Below are positions 2,696 to 5,665 of a stretch of DNA of 5,665 bases, one piece after another. The DNA is from Anaerolineales bacterium (lineage in GTDB: Bacteria; Chloroflexota; Anaerolineae; Anaerolineales; Villigracilaceae). The stretch spans positions 1 through 5,665 of the forward strand of contig JAICQC010000304.1 of NCBI GenBank assembly GCA_025938055.1, written 5' to 3'. The notes beneath the pieces are model-generated. The model had not been told where the DNA came from. It saw only the letters and a list, made by a program, of their open reading frames with translations, and did no database searches. Position 1 is the first letter of the stretch, and each line of letters starts with the position of its first letter. The position numbers and the translations under genes are program-made.

Positions 2696-3709
2696 GTGCG
2701 TTTACGACTCATCATCCTCTTCAGCGTGATCGCAGTTGTCCTGAGCGCCTGTGGCGCGGGCGGGTCAAACGAGACAGCCACGCCCATCTCAACCGACACC
2801 CCGCTTGTCCCACCGACGGAGACAGCCACGACTGCCACGCCTCTTGCGATCCTGATCTTGCCGGCTGACCTCGACCCTGATACCTCCAATCTTTACCAGA
2901 AAACAGTCTACGATCTCACTCAAGCCTCCGGCATGCGCTTTCAGGTGCGCAACACGCTCACCACCGCCGACCTCGAACCCGGTTTGCAAGTAGTGATTGC
3001 CCTCCCACCCGACCCTGGGATCGCTGCACTGGCAGCCGCGGCGCCACAGGTGCAGTTCCTTGCAATCAACATCCCCGAAGTTGCAGCGGGCGGCAACGTC
3101 AGCGTGTTGGGAAATAACTCACAGACAGACGTTGCTGCCTTCCTGGCAGGCTACACTGCGGCTCTCCTCACCGACGACTACCGCATTGGCATGATGATGC
3201 CCAAGGACAACCCGGATGCACTGCGCGCGCTGAACGCCTATGCCAGTGGCATGGCATACTATTGCGGGACATGCCGTCCGGTCCTTTTTTACCCGTGGGC
3301 ATACCCGCAGTACATCGAGATTCCAGCCGAGGAGGATCCGGATAATTTTGATGCTTATGCTGATATCCTGATATTGCAATACAAGGTGGGGACGATCTTC
3401 CTCCACCCTGATATCGCCACGGCAGACCTGGAAACGTACATCGGTACGACTGGCGTGTACATGATCGGCACGGTCACTCCCGAAGAGCAGCCAGCAGGCT
3501 GGGTAATGACCATTCAGCCGGATGTCATCCAGGCGATTCAAAATGCCTGGCCCGGCCTGGTCAGCGGGCAGGGAGGGGTCACCGTTCAATCGCCGCTGGG
3601 GCTTGCCGATATAGATGAAACCCTGCTTTCTCCGGGGAAACAGCGCCTCGTTGAACAAACCCTGAACGACCTGCAGGCAGGACTGATCAGTACGGGCGCA
3701 ACTCCGTAG
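2696..3709 (+). CDS. BMP/PnrA/Med-like substrate-binding lipoprotein
   Basis: The GTG at 2696 is preferred (337 aa) because GGAG at 2686-2689 lies six bases upstream. The in-frame GTG at 2684 would overlap that site and add only four residues. A type II signal peptide (MRLRLIILFSVIAVVLSAC, lipidated C19) is followed by a Thr/Pro-rich linker (20-49) and a domain with alternating beta/alpha pattern typical of type I periplasmic binding proteins. The stretch DVAAFLAGYTAALL (FLAGY at 149-153) followed by YRIGMM, and the closing LSPGKQRLVEQTLNDL, resemble the basic membrane protein (BMP) family, which includes the nucleoside-binding PnrA and the regulator Med. A CGTC motif (C190, C193) is unusual for that family. 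No permease or ATPase gene is adjacent, so a transport role is not supported by context. It may be a stand-alone ligand sensor. The lipoprotein call is firm; the family is less certain. Confidence 0.7.
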   Translation: MRLRLIILFSVIAVVLSACGAGGSNETATPISTDTPLVPPTETATTATPLAILILPADLDPDTSNLYQKTVYDLTQASGMRFQVRNTLTTADLEPGLQVVIALPPDPGIAALAAAAPQVQFLAINIPEVAAGGNVSVLGNNSQTDVAAFLAGYTAALLTDDYRIGMMMPKDNPDALRALNAYASGMAYYCGTCRPVLFYPWAYPQYIEIPAEEDPDNFDAYADILILQYKVGTIFLHPDIATADLETYIGTTGVYMIGTVTPEEQPAGWVMTIQPDVIQAIQNAWPGLVSGQGGVTVQSPLGLADIDETLLSPGKQRLVEQTLNDLQAGLISTGATP

Positions 3710-3720
3710 CGAATGGATAA

Positions 3721-3754
3721 ATCAAAATGCCCGCGTTGCTGCGGGCATTTTGAT
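3721..3754. terminator. Bidirectional terminator between BMP-like gene and receiver gene
   Basis: The arms ATCAAAATGCCCGC (3721-3734) and its exact complement (3741-3754) form a 14-bp stem with a GTTGCT loop. The G/C core is flanked by AAAA on one side and TTTT on the other, so transcripts from both strands end in a short U-run. It lies 11 bases after the lipoprotein stop and 39 bases beyond the stop of the convergent minus-strand gene. Confidence 0.88.
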
Positions 3755-3788
3755 CCAGCCAAAGGCTGAGCAGAAATAAGGAGGAGAA

Positions 3789-3839
3789 ATGAATTACAAC
3801 GTGACACCCATAACAGCGGGAACTCGTTCGCTTCGTTGA
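3789..3839 (+). CDS. Doubtful 16-codon ORF with a strong Shine-Dalgarno, antisense to the receiver gene
   Basis: AAGGAGGAG at 3778-3786 is followed two to four bases later by ATG and a 16-codon frame (MNYNVTP...RSLR) ending in TGA. The ribosome-binding site is as good as any in the window. However, there is no visible promoter after the terminator at 3721-3754 and no terminator behind the ORF. All but the first five bases of the ORF are antisense to the 3' end of the receiver gene. It could be chance, or the remnant of a gene that once lay here. It is recorded because the site is striking, not because the gene is established. Confidence 0.15.
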   Translation: MNYNVTPITAGTRSLR

Positions 3840-4231
3840 CCGTGCCCCAGCCATGCCATTGCCTTGACAACCAGCACAGCAGGATTGACCGGCTTCACGA
3901 GACACTCGTCTGCACCTTCCTGATTGGCTTCGACGATTTCATCCACAGTACTGGCGTTGATGAGCATCAGGATGGGCCCGCGGCTGGCAGAACGTAGACC
4001 GTTCAATAAAAAGGTACGGTCAGCCTTTGATAAGTTCATATCCACTAACATCAATGAGGGACCAATCAGCCGCGCGCTCTGCAGGGCATCCGCGATATTT
4101 GCCTCAGACAGGACAACACAATTCCTCTGGCTAAAGAGGGTATCCCATACCGCGATGTTTTCCGGTTGATCAGAAACAATCAGCACGGTGTGAAGGGGGA
4201 TGGCATCGACATCGGTTTTCCAGGTAACCAT
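3794..4231 (-). CDS. Stand-alone response-regulator receiver (CheY-like) protein
   Basis: This is a single-domain cytoplasmic receiver that would accept a phosphoryl group from a histidine kinase. Taking the ATG at 4231 as start it has 145 aa. The GTG at 4234 immediately before it is equally possible, because AAAGG (complement of 4241-4245) is six bases from GTG and nine from ATG. The domain starts at HTVLIVSDQPEN, where the usual acidic pair is reduced to S-D (D21). The phospho-acceptor is D64 in MLVDMNL, the switch residue S94 in LMLINAS, and the conserved lysine K113 in GADECLVKPVNP. About 20 residues follow without any DNA-binding or enzymatic output domain, so it must act through protein contacts or as a phosphate relay. 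No histidine kinase is adjacent. It is divergent from the small-ORF unit and convergent with the BMP-like lipoprotein. Confidence 0.88.
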   Translation of the reverse strand: MVTWKTDVDAIPLHTVLIVSDQPENIAVWDTLFSQRNCVVLSEANIADALQSARLIGPSLMLVDMNLSKADRTFLLNGLRSASRGPILMLINASTVDEIVEANQEGADECLVKPVNPAVLVVKAMAWLGHGQRSERVPAVMGVTL

Positions 4232-4262
4232 CACGTACCGCCTTTCTTATGCACTCAATAAC

Positions 4263-4292
4263 TTGACGGAAAATTAGGCTGCATGTTACACT
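4263..4292 (+). promoter_or_regulatory. Sigma-70-type promoter for the small-ORF/GNAT leader
   Basis: TTGACG (4263-4268, five of six to consensus) is separated by 18 bp from TACACT (4287-4292, four of six). TG at 4284-4285 forms an extended -10 (TGnTACACT). Transcription would begin near 4299, leaving a leader of about 35 bases that includes the strong Shine-Dalgarno at 4316-4323. It is the best complete promoter in the window. The spacer is shared with the divergent receiver gene, for which I found no clear promoter. Confidence 0.6.
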
Positions 4293-4315
4293 TTGATGGT
4301 AAGCAATTTTTTAAG

Positions 4316-4323
4316 AAAGGAGG
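4316..4323 (+). promoter_or_regulatory. Strong Shine-Dalgarno of the 28-codon ORF
   Basis: AAAGGAGG fits the anti-Shine-Dalgarno of 16S rRNA almost completely. It lies 10 bases before the ATG at 4334, and 7 bases before an in-frame TTG at 4331. Bases 4317-4328 can pair with 4401-4412 at the end of the same ORF (11 of 12 pairs, one G-G mismatch), which would hide the site in the full-length RNA. Confidence 0.65.
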
Positions 4324-4333
4324 CGCACGTTTG

Positions 4334-4420
4334 ATGATGAACATCATGAAGTTCCATGACAAAGTATTCCGAATTGGTAATGACGGTTTTGATTCGCGTA
4401 GTGCGCCTGCTTATCGTTAA
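4334..4420 (+). CDS. 28-residue small protein or leader peptide
   Basis: The frame runs from ATG (4334) to TAA (4418-4420), begins MMNIMKFHDKVF and ends RSAPAYR. In-frame ATGs at 4337 and 4346 and a TTG at 4331 are alternative starts. I do not recognise the peptide. It has no membrane segment, signal sequence or metal-binding motif, and is mildly basic. Support for it being real comes from its surroundings: a good promoter (4263-4292), a very strong Shine-Dalgarno, and an intrinsic terminator beginning 22 bases after the stop, which together make a complete unit of about 180 bases. It precedes two GNAT acetyltransferase genes that lack an obvious promoter of their own, so it may be a leader peptide controlling them. 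It contains no run of identical codons of the amino-acid-attenuator type. Alternatively the RNA itself is the product. Conservation of the frame in relatives would decide. Confidence 0.5.
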   Translation: MMNIMKFHDKVFRIGNDGFDSRSAPAYR

Positions 4421-4442
4421 TTTATACGCAATGTAGATAACG

Positions 4443-4480
4443 ACAGCCACGGTGCACCCGCCCGTGGCTGTTTTGATTTT
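4443..4480 (+). terminator. Intrinsic terminator after the small ORF
   Basis: ACAGCCACGG (4443-4452) pairs perfectly with 4462-4471 around a nine-base loop. TTTTGATTTT follows. The opposite strand has no T-run, so it acts on the plus strand only. It ends the small-ORF unit, or attenuates transcription into the acetyltransferase genes. Confidence 0.8.
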
Positions 4481-4491
4481 GCACGACTGTC

Positions 4492-4525
4492 CAGCCATCG
4501 GCATTGCCTGTGGCTGTTTATTTTT
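4492..4525 (+). terminator. Second terminator-like hairpin directly before the GNAT Shine-Dalgarno
   Basis: CAGCCAT (4492-4498) pairs with GTGGCTG (4510-4516, one wobble). Above a C-T mismatch, GGC (4500-4502) pairs with GCC (4506-4508) around an ATT loop. TTTATTTTT follows through 4525, 13 bases before GGAGG of the acetyltransferase gene. It is weaker than the hairpin at 4443 but has the right architecture. Its arm cores are identical to those of the first hairpin. Confidence 0.5.
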
Positions 4526-4547
4526 GAAAAGGATTGTTGGAGGTAAC

Positions 4548-5144
4548 ATGTTCGATATTCAAACCCAATTATTTGAAAGCCAGGACCTGCGGCTGGGTCC
4601 CATTGATCATGAAAAAGACCCGGAGGCTGAATCGAAATGGACGCACGATTCGGAGTTCATGCGTTTAATGGAAACGGCTCCCGCTCGCCCGATGTCTGTG
4701 GCGATGGTCAAGAAGCAGTATGAAAAGCTCGAGAAACAAATTGAAGAGGAAAAGAATCTCTACCACTTCATGATTCGCGTCAAAGAGGATGACCGGGTGA
4801 TCGGCAAAGCCGTCATCCAGCAGATCGAGTGGACGAATGGCAACGGCTGGATTCGTCTCGGCATCGGCTCGTCAGATGACCGGCGAAAGGGATATGGCAC
4901 ACAGGCGCTGCGGATGTTGTTGCGCTTTGCTTTTGCCGAACTCAATCTGTTCCGCGTCGCGGCAATCGTGCCGGAATACAACGAAGGTGCAATCGCCCTC
5001 CTGCAAAAGTTCGGTTTTGTGCAGGAGGTCTGCAGGCGCAAGTCGCTCGAACGTGATGGTCGTCGCTGGGATCTGTATGTCTTCGGCTTGTTGAACGAAG
5101 AATGGCGGATGCCTGCCACAAAGACCCAGGCGCCGGAGGATTGA
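4548..5144 (+). CDS. GNAT-family N-acetyltransferase (RimJ/RimL-like), first of a tandem pair
   Basis: The ATG at 4548 gives 198 aa, with GGAGG (4539-4543) four bases upstream. A longer frame back to 4452 would run through both terminator hairpins and adds no recognisable domain. GNAT enzymes move an acetyl group from acetyl-CoA to an amine. Here residues about 12-180 span the fold. The acetyl-CoA-binding motif A is LGIGSSDDRRKGYGT, with R112-K-G-Y-G-T118 providing the pyrophosphate loop, followed by the motif B region VPEYNEGAIALLQKFGF. The opening LRLGPI and the DSEFMRL segment suggest the RimJ/RimL-type subgroup, which acetylates protein N-termini, small amines or antibiotics. Substrate cannot be told from sequence. 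Residues about 50-70 are Lys/Glu-rich and probably a long helix. The stop TGA shares one base with the ATG of the next, related gene, so the two are translationally coupled. Confidence 0.88.
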   Translation: MFDIQTQLFESQDLRLGPIDHEKDPEAESKWTHDSEFMRLMETAPARPMSVAMVKKQYEKLEKQIEEEKNLYHFMIRVKEDDRVIGKAVIQQIEWTNGNGWIRLGIGSSDDRRKGYGTQALRMLLRFAFAELNLFRVAAIVPEYNEGAIALLQKFGFVQEVCRRKSLERDGRRWDLYVFGLLNEEWRMPATKTQAPED

Positions 5145-5665
5145 TGAAAAATCTATTCCGCGGAGAGCTTGTCCGCTTCACGCTGGAGGAGCCGGATGCA
5201 TACGCCAAAGCGGAAATCCGCTGGCAGCGCGATTCAGAATTCCATCGCCTGGCGGATGGAGACCCTGCCGTATTGCATTCCGAAAAGGCGATCAAGGATT
5301 GGTTCGCCAAGCAGACCGAGGACCCCAAACCCGAACGATATTCCTTCACGGTCCGCACACTGGCTGAGGATAAATTTATCGGTTTTCTCGGCTTGTGGGT
5401 GGACCTGATCCACAGCGAAGCCTGGGTTGGGCTTGGGATTGGCGAGCGCGAATTCTGGAGTAAAGGGTATGGCACCGACATGATGAAGCTCTGCCTGCAA
5501 TATGCCTTTAACGAATTATGCGTGGAACGCGTATCGCTGGGTGTTCATGAATATAACCCGCGTGCCTTGAAGTCGTATGAGAAGTGCGGTTTTCGACTGG
5601 AGGGTCGTACACGCCAGGATGTGATGCGCGAAGGCAGGCGCACCGATTCGTTATGGATGGGCATC
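5144..5665 (+). CDS. GNAT-family N-acetyltransferase, second of a tandem pair (3' end outside window)
   Basis: It starts at ATG 5144, overlapping the previous stop as TGATG, with GGAGG (5135-5139) four bases upstream, the same spacing as its neighbour. The 174 codons present run off the right edge without a stop. Motif A is LGIGEREFWSKGYGT (K107-G-Y-G-T111), followed by YAFNEL, ERVSLGVHEYNPRAL and YEKCGF, and then EGRTRQDVMREGRR, the typical RimL-like end. The family is normally about 180-200 aa, so little is missing. It is clearly related to the preceding gene: both share W-x-x-DSEF-x-RL near the N-terminus, LGIG, KGYGT, FA/FN-x-EL, EYN and K-x-GF. This points to an old tandem duplication with divergence. 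The two products may form a heterodimer or act on related substrates; that is inference. Confidence 0.9.
   Translation, partial: MKNLFRGELVRFTLEEPDAYAKAEIRWQRDSEFHRLADGDPAVLHSEKAIKDWFAKQTEDPKPERYSFTVRTLAEDKFIGFLGLWVDLIHSEAWVGLGIGEREFWSKGYGTDMMKLCLQYAFNELCVERVSLGVHEYNPRALKSYEKCGFRLEGRTRQDVMREGRRTDSLWMGI

Follow-up and report, generated by a model that had tools for sequence, protein, structure and literature searches.

How does transcription reach two GNAT acetyltransferase genes that stand behind two terminator-like hairpins? The genes close a 5,665-nucleotide stretch of DNA from an Anaerolineales bacterium (Chloroflexota), which was analysed as a whole and is called the window here. The initial annotation drew attention to four alternating segments with the cores CAGCCA (4444-4449, segment 1), TGGCTG (4465-4470, segment 2), CAGCCA (4492-4497, segment 3) and TGGCTG (4511-4516, segment 4). 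It proposed that they pair either as 1:2 and 3:4, giving two terminators, or as 2:3, letting polymerase through, and that together with a small open reading frame (ORF) upstream the arrangement resembles leader-peptide attenuation. The positions of the four cores, and of the stop codon of the small ORF (4418), were correct. As a whole this interpretation is partly supported; the element that joins the ribosome to the hairpins, segment B in the list below, was missed. With B included, we propose that 4263-4548 would act as a ribosome-sensing transcription attenuator with a two-step relay, a model to which we assign a probability of about 0.72. The competing segments are A, B, C (which lies within segment 1) and segments 2 to 4; the parts of the window leader and the genes behind it are as follows.

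4263..4292, + strand: promoter-like site, TTGACG-18-TACACT with TG before the -10 element, 9/12 matches
4316..4323, + strand: Shine-Dalgarno (SD) sequence AAAGGAGG, belonging to the small ORF
4321..4328, + strand: segment A, AGGCGCAC, overlapping the SD and pairing with B; the free window leader has A:B in its minimum-energy fold
4334..4420, + strand: small ORF of 28 codons, MMNIMKFHDKVFRIGNDGFDSRSAPAYR, stop codon at 4418
4400..4408, + strand: segment B, AGTGCGCCT, within the final codons of the small ORF; its partner is A or C
4414..4443, + strand: stem-loop between the close of the small ORF and hairpin 1, lying inside the antiterminator (window folds)
4442..4472, + strand: hairpin 1, segments 1 and 2, terminator-like, with a U-rich tract at 4471-4480 (fold against shuffles)
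4451..4457, + strand: segment C, GGTGCAC, partner of B, located in the 5' arm and loop of hairpin 1
4460..4470, + strand: segment 2, GCCCGTGGCTG, forming the 3' arm of hairpin 1 and able instead to pair with segment 3
4492..4502, + strand: segment 3, CAGCCATCGGC, 5' arm of hairpin 2
4492..4516, + strand: hairpin 2, segments 3 and 4, terminator-like, with a U-rich tract at 4517-4525 (fold against shuffles)
4548..5144, + strand: first controlled gene, GNAT acetyltransferase (PF13302)
5144..5665, + strand: second GNAT acetyltransferase (PF13302), running past the window end

The promoter-like site upstream of the small ORF was the only one that a promoter scan found on the + strand of the whole window, and a TTGAC and TG/TA..A-T core could be discerned across 15 leaders (the window and the 14 relatives described below). 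Hairpin 1 folded at -23.3 kcal/mol (z -6.28) and hairpin 2 at -15.5 kcal/mol (z -3.75), and in each case 0 of 200 shuffles folded as well, so that the two terminator-like hairpins, each followed by a U-rich tract, stand as annotated. A simple terminator scan of the whole window, which gave 8 sites against 5.1 expected, listed neither of them because each has a bulge or a mismatch. The 2:3 stretch taken alone from the window was unexceptional (-9.0, z -0.90, with 40 of 200 shuffles as good), and support for 2:3 comes from relatives and not from the window sequence by itself. The window also carries the end of an Immune-inhibitor-A-like M6 metallopeptidase (1-1419, + strand; PF05547, PF20773, PF20774), cut by the window start, and an HSP20 family small heat-shock protein gene (2154-2594, + strand) followed by a terminator-like hairpin at 2615-2642. 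A gene for a receiver-domain protein (3797-4234, - strand; PF00072) is divergent from the leader promoter, and sequence like this region was seen by eye upstream of the leader in several relatives.

Genome contigs were scanned with the first GNAT, which yielded 22 loci, 18 of them (L001-L018) from Chloroflexota by title. The promoter, SD, small ORF, B and hairpin 1 were common to the window and 14 of these 18 relatives and lay in the same place, so the upstream small ORF of the initial annotation is a shared feature. When the 15 leaders were aligned, GCGCC and a G two bases on were invariant near the end of the small ORF, and the arms of hairpin 1 were conserved, its apical part carrying sequence such as GGTGCACTC. 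Of the 9 consensus pairs in hairpin 1, 6 showed changes on both sides with the pair kept. RNAalifold, run from B to hairpin 1, returned hairpin 1 and a 2-pair helix only, a sparse consensus that is expected because the pairings are alternative. The remaining four relatives (L009 and L015-L017) have an ABC-type gene directly upstream of the GNAT (by eye), and matches to the covariance model described below (L149, L151, L152 and L154) precede the GNATs of L015, L009, L017 and L016, respectively, by about 0.9-1.1 kb; here the leader may stand at the head of an operon of the ABC-type gene and the GNAT. These four relatives are not in the leader set. Three others (L002, L006 and L008) carry between leader and GNAT an inverted-repeat element, CCTCA..CCC..TCTCCC..GGGAG..GGGGCAAGGG..GAGG, which resembles an interspersed repeat.

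A covariance model that covers B through hairpin 1 was used to collect further leaders. Nine of the leader-source genomes were scanned and had 2 to 7 matches each at E<=0.1, weak ones included, and 10 of 11 extra matches examined showed full or partial leader anatomy before other genes, the other one (L040) being a terminator only. Within the class of genome G001 (Anaerolineae), 132 of 396 genomes matched at E<=1e-3 per genome, compared with 2 of 185 in the control class of a Burkholderia genome, where the better of the two matches (L167) had by eye the appearance of a plain terminator. A sample of the phylum gave matches in 33 of 400 genomes at E<=1e-4, and 32 of the 33 were already in the class search. 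The 132 leaders analysed are the window, the 14 GNAT relatives, the 11 extra copies and 106 class hits, which were taken without regard to the gene in E-value order to 4.5e-6, leaving out G356:C270 and loci already in the set. Two loci are counted twice among the 132 (L043 is L006, and L049 is L014), and two weak hits without B (L040 and L130) stand outside the B-based counts. The presence of B in these leaders is not independent evidence, because the collecting model itself contains B and hairpin 1.

The genes behind the 106 gene-blind leaders were tallied from the first long ORF downstream, by Pfam for 40 proteins and otherwise by phmmer against five prototypes. They comprised 33 GNATs (14 window-like and 19 other), 31 ABC exporters and 1 MFS transporter, 13 ABC-F proteins, 8 ABC ATPases (three were scanned, with DrrA as best match), 4 HAD hydrolases, 4 RsgA GTPases, 3 RIO kinases, 2 aminoacyl-tRNA synthetases (Leu and Asp) and 7 that were unclassified. 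Leaders before translation or ribosome genes include L090, L108, L119 and L143 (RsgA), L093, L140 and L145 (RIO1-type kinase) and L133 (aspartyl-tRNA synthetase), which are not genes of the resistance type. In the leader before the leucyl-tRNA synthetase gene, L129, B is poor and the criterion used gave no SD-preceded ORF, and this match may be a chance hit.

Segment B of the window has two complements: A, in the SD region, and C, on the 5' side and in the loop of hairpin 1. We compared the duplex energy of cognate segments with that of pairs swapped among leaders in 5000 permutations, admitting leaders with a frame-0 ORF, an SD scoring 5 or more and a hairpin 1 that could be folded (97 leaders, 94 unique). 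Among the 94, cognate B:C had -17.7 kcal/mol against -15.4 when swapped (z -10.1) and A:B -15.0 against -13.4 kcal/mol (z -8.0), each with 0/5000 permutations as strong, and the control pairs stayed near zero (B:mid z +0.4, A:C -0.1, mid:C -0.9). When swaps were confined to gene classes and near-duplicates were removed (90 leaders), B:C kept a z of -8.7 and A:B of -7.0, with controls at +0.3 and -0.4. The GNAT class alone (24 leaders) gave a weak signal for B:C (z -2.1, 99/5000 permutations) and a z of -3.3 for A:B. Position -4 of B showed all six standard pair types in the B:C fits, and joint changes of B and C can be seen, for example, in L135, L060, L123 and L126. The B:C pairing answers the weak point conceded in the initial annotation, that a ribosome at the stop codon would fall short of segment 1: B lies in the last codons of the ORF, and its partner C belongs to the 5' side of hairpin 1, so that a ribosome could act through B.

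A second terminator-like hairpin is present in 79 of the 132 leaders (77/130 without repeated loci); among the 29 leaders before a window-type GNAT, 25 have one (repeats included). Across these 79 leaders (76 unique), the 2:3 pairing that the initial annotation had put forward as the alternative was kept: cognate energies were -17.3 against -12.6 kcal/mol for swapped pairs (z -13.5, 0/5000 permutations, 76 leaders), and the z was -8.9 with swaps within gene classes (55 leaders) and -6.3 in the GNAT class alone (22 leaders). The enclosing pairing 1:4 was also kept (z -10.0, and -6.5 within classes), and the control 1:3 went in the opposite direction (z +3.7). With scripted arm limits, which are not quite symmetric, 2:3 was stronger than 1:4 in 54 of the 79 leaders and weaker in 25 (Wilcoxon p 4e-6), which suggests, as far as such comparisons can be read, selection for a freed segment 2 to capture segment 3. 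Because the arms of both hairpins change together in relatives, and 2:3 more than 1:4, the fallback offered by the initial annotation, that the arrangement is simply a duplicated tandem terminator, is less likely. A related explanation accepts the B:C antiterminator and takes hairpin 2 as a back-up terminator copied from hairpin 1, with the shared arms due to ancestry and 2:3 without a role. Fifty-three of the 132 leaders have a single hairpin by the criterion used, duplication predicts that 1:4 should beat swapped pairs, as it does, and could account for part of the likeness of the arms, and in the window hairpin 2 is predicted to beat 2:3. Against this explanation, 2:3 exceeds 1:4 in most of the 79 leaders, its co-change persists in within-class swaps, the loops of the two hairpins differ by eye, and opening hairpin 1 alone would be of little use if hairpin 2 still halted polymerase. 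We therefore regard the back-up explanation as unlikely, if one to keep in view, and prefer the relay, in which 2:3 has a part.

Folding bears on what B:C would do to hairpin 1. When A was masked, as a ribosome on the start region would do, and the transcript stopped at C, the minimum-energy fold contained five or more B:C pairs in 91/94 leaders, compared with 11% of 940 shuffles that kept B. The B:C fold takes a median of 80% of the paired bases of the hairpin 1 5' arm, with at least five captured in 93/94 leaders, and B:C excludes the terminator because most of this arm is captured. Hairpin 1 and B:C are thus, by prediction, a conserved terminator and a mutually exclusive antiterminator. In the window the B:C fold also pairs 4409-4411 with 4445-4447 of segment 1; the free transcript to 4460 folds with A:B, and when the start region is covered B:C becomes the minimum. 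Unmasked folds had at least five A:B pairs in 28/94 leaders, against 7.7% of shuffles, and B:C was already present in 57/94, so A:B is not universal in the family. It might be argued that B and the loop of hairpin 1 form a pseudoknot by which the terminator would be reinforced and not broken, since C lies largely within the loop in many leaders (by eye) and the two could in part co-exist. The extent to which the B:C fold consumes the 5' arm, and its reach into segment 1 of the window (by programs that score no pseudoknots), make this improbable, and we retain B:C as an antiterminator.

Where the small ORF ends relative to B is the other constraint. For the spacing test the ORF was picked by its SD in any frame, and 107 of the 132 leaders qualified; of the 25 excluded, 23 lacked an SD-preceded start and 2 lacked B. 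The SD-preceded small ORF reads through B in 105/107 leaders (103/105 without repeated loci), and its stop lies 8-27 nt (median 15) past the start of the GCGCC of B. Given the size of a ribosome footprint, a terminating ribosome would therefore cover B. At the level of sequence, then, a translatable leader ORF, of predicted translation, precedes the terminator. Seven leaders without an SD look leaderless by eye, with an ATG a few bases after the -10 box (the pattern flagged 13), namely L036, L112, L113, L116, L137 and L147 (ABC-F) and L144 (GNAT). They cannot use A:B because the SD region is absent. Since some leaders have no SD, the core of the family is B:C, hairpin 1 and the stop-to-B distance, and A:B is an extra in many leaders, the window included.

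A single frame over B is shared by 100 of the 105 ORFs, S-A-P occurs in most, and AP-rich arrest peptides exist, so a conserved C-terminal SAP(V/A)xR-like peptide might stall the ribosome by itself. Yet B is kept in all five exceptions, of which L100, L104, L107 and L133 read it in the second frame and L087 in the third; because of these five the RNA is kept more strictly than the peptide. Furthermore, L135 has Leu for Ala with B:C complementarity intact, and no common peptide sequence was seen by eye beyond the last residues. Nascent-peptide arrest is, in our view, a rather remote explanation, and we favour a ribosome that acts through the RNA of B. That the hairpins, both good terminator candidates, are just an ordinary tandem intrinsic terminator of the small-ORF transcript, with the GNATs unregulated, is very improbable, as B changes together with C and with A, the stop-to-B spacing is narrow, and the leader recurs before resistance-type genes.

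The conserved anatomy, three pairings whose partners change together, the narrow stop-to-B spacing and the downstream gene set are computed results, and they support the attenuation by a leader peptide with mutually exclusive hairpins that had been suggested. The model that we propose is as follows. When the ribosome finishes the small ORF it would sit over B at the stop codon; hairpin 1 and then hairpin 2 would form, and polymerase would terminate. If no ribosome is present on a window-type leader, A:B would occupy B and hide the SD. Should the ribosome instead be slowed or halted near the beginning of the small ORF, as by a translation inhibitor, it would cover A and leave B free. B could then pair with C before the 3' arm of hairpin 1 exists, giving an antiterminator that holds most of the 5' arm. 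Segment 2, freed in this way, would pair with segment 3 before segment 4 is made, so that the second terminator fails and polymerase goes on into the GNAT genes. That termination occurs, that a stalled ribosome is the signal and that events follow this order is what we infer, and it is the gene set that points to a drug or stress as the presumed inducer. For the 2:3 switch of the initial annotation this means that the alternative pairing is supported and that it would be the second step and not the trigger, as the ribosome would act on B.

Folding the window leader for alternative structures gave both terminators as the equilibrium minimum. Both terminators together scored -56.1, B:C combined with hairpin 2 -50.1, and B:C combined with 2:3 -45.8, which argues against the four segments as a free-standing switch. 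Because the terminated state is the equilibrium minimum, the on state must be kinetic and depend on the order of synthesis; in the on state of the window, too, the predicted stability of hairpin 2 exceeds that of 2:3.

Attenuation at more than one termination site, as proposed here, is reportedly also found in the ermK leader, where it acts on a resistance gene. For the bmrB-bmrCD locus of Bacillus subtilis a leader ORF, a terminator, an antiterminator and a predicted anti-antiterminator have been described upstream of a multidrug ABC exporter; the terminator is favoured when translation is efficient, and the antiterminator, the less stable structure in the published model, when a drug slows translation (PMC4191407). 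The leaders studied here share with that account a small leader ORF, an alternative terminator and antiterminator, a less stable on state and, in many leaders, a downstream ABC exporter. By description, not by sequence comparison, they differ in that the one terminator described for bmrB lies inside the leader ORF, whereas here the terminator follows the stop codon, B lies narrowly before the stop, and many leaders have a second terminator cross-paired to the first (PMC4191407). In the vmlR leader of B. subtilis, as described, the anti-antiterminator holds an upstream ORF (uORF), stalling on the uORF prevents the anti-antiterminator, and an ABC-F gene follows (PMC9226507). The antiterminator and terminator, the ABC-F gene behind some leaders and a candidate anti-antiterminator are parallels; the vmlR account gives a uORF of three codons, one terminator and an extra hairpin over the vmlR SD, unlike the ORFs of about 20-35 codons with B inside their end, the two terminators in 79/132 leaders and the GNAT SD that is unpaired in the window fold here (PMC9226507). 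The candidate counterpart of the anti-antiterminator over the ORF start in both systems is A:B (z -8.0), which appears in the free fold of 28/94 leaders and is impossible where the SD region is lacking. Tandem terminators with a potential antiterminator have also been described for the rimP-leader of some Gammaproteobacteria, and this is a likeness; the phylum and gene are different, and that description includes no small ORF (PMC2965389). By analogy, the switch logic is that of bmrB/vmlR attenuation. Attenuators of amino-acid biosynthesis (trp, his or ilv type) fit less well: no codon run shared by the listed ORFs was seen by eye, and none of the classified downstream genes is biosynthetic.

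A search of Rfam gave no match at the gathering score for the window (two sub-threshold matches at E<=1) or for 20 other loci (0 matches). Thr_leader (window 3690-3755), far below its gathering score, and AaHKsRNA41 (minus strand, 4488-4608), with 21.5 bits where 97 are needed, were taken as chance. Within the open-access literature, which leaves most subscription papers and all preprints outside, we found among the titles listed no paper joining Chloroflexi or Anaerolineae with leader-peptide attenuation. Because there was no Rfam match and no such paper, we file the leader as a new form of ribosome-mediated attenuation; the leader family, its gene set and the two-terminator relay appear to be undescribed.

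The conserved leader thus probably permits the reading of resistance-type and ribosome-care genes only when a ribosome stalls on the small ORF upstream. A wider proposal, for which we see the odds as even, is a translation-stress regulon across the class Anaerolineae, in which one leader type before unrelated genes would monitor ribosome progress at a fixed distance ahead of a stop codon, pass the decision from A:B to B:C to 2:3 and open two successive terminators together. If this is true, an RNA switch that responds to antibiotics or stress would be widespread in a group for which the searched literature held none. GNATs, exporters and ribosome-care factors of unknown substrate would then be tied to translation arrest, offering a direct route to their signals, and the two-terminator relay would be an apparently new way to make an attenuator that is tight when off and open when on.
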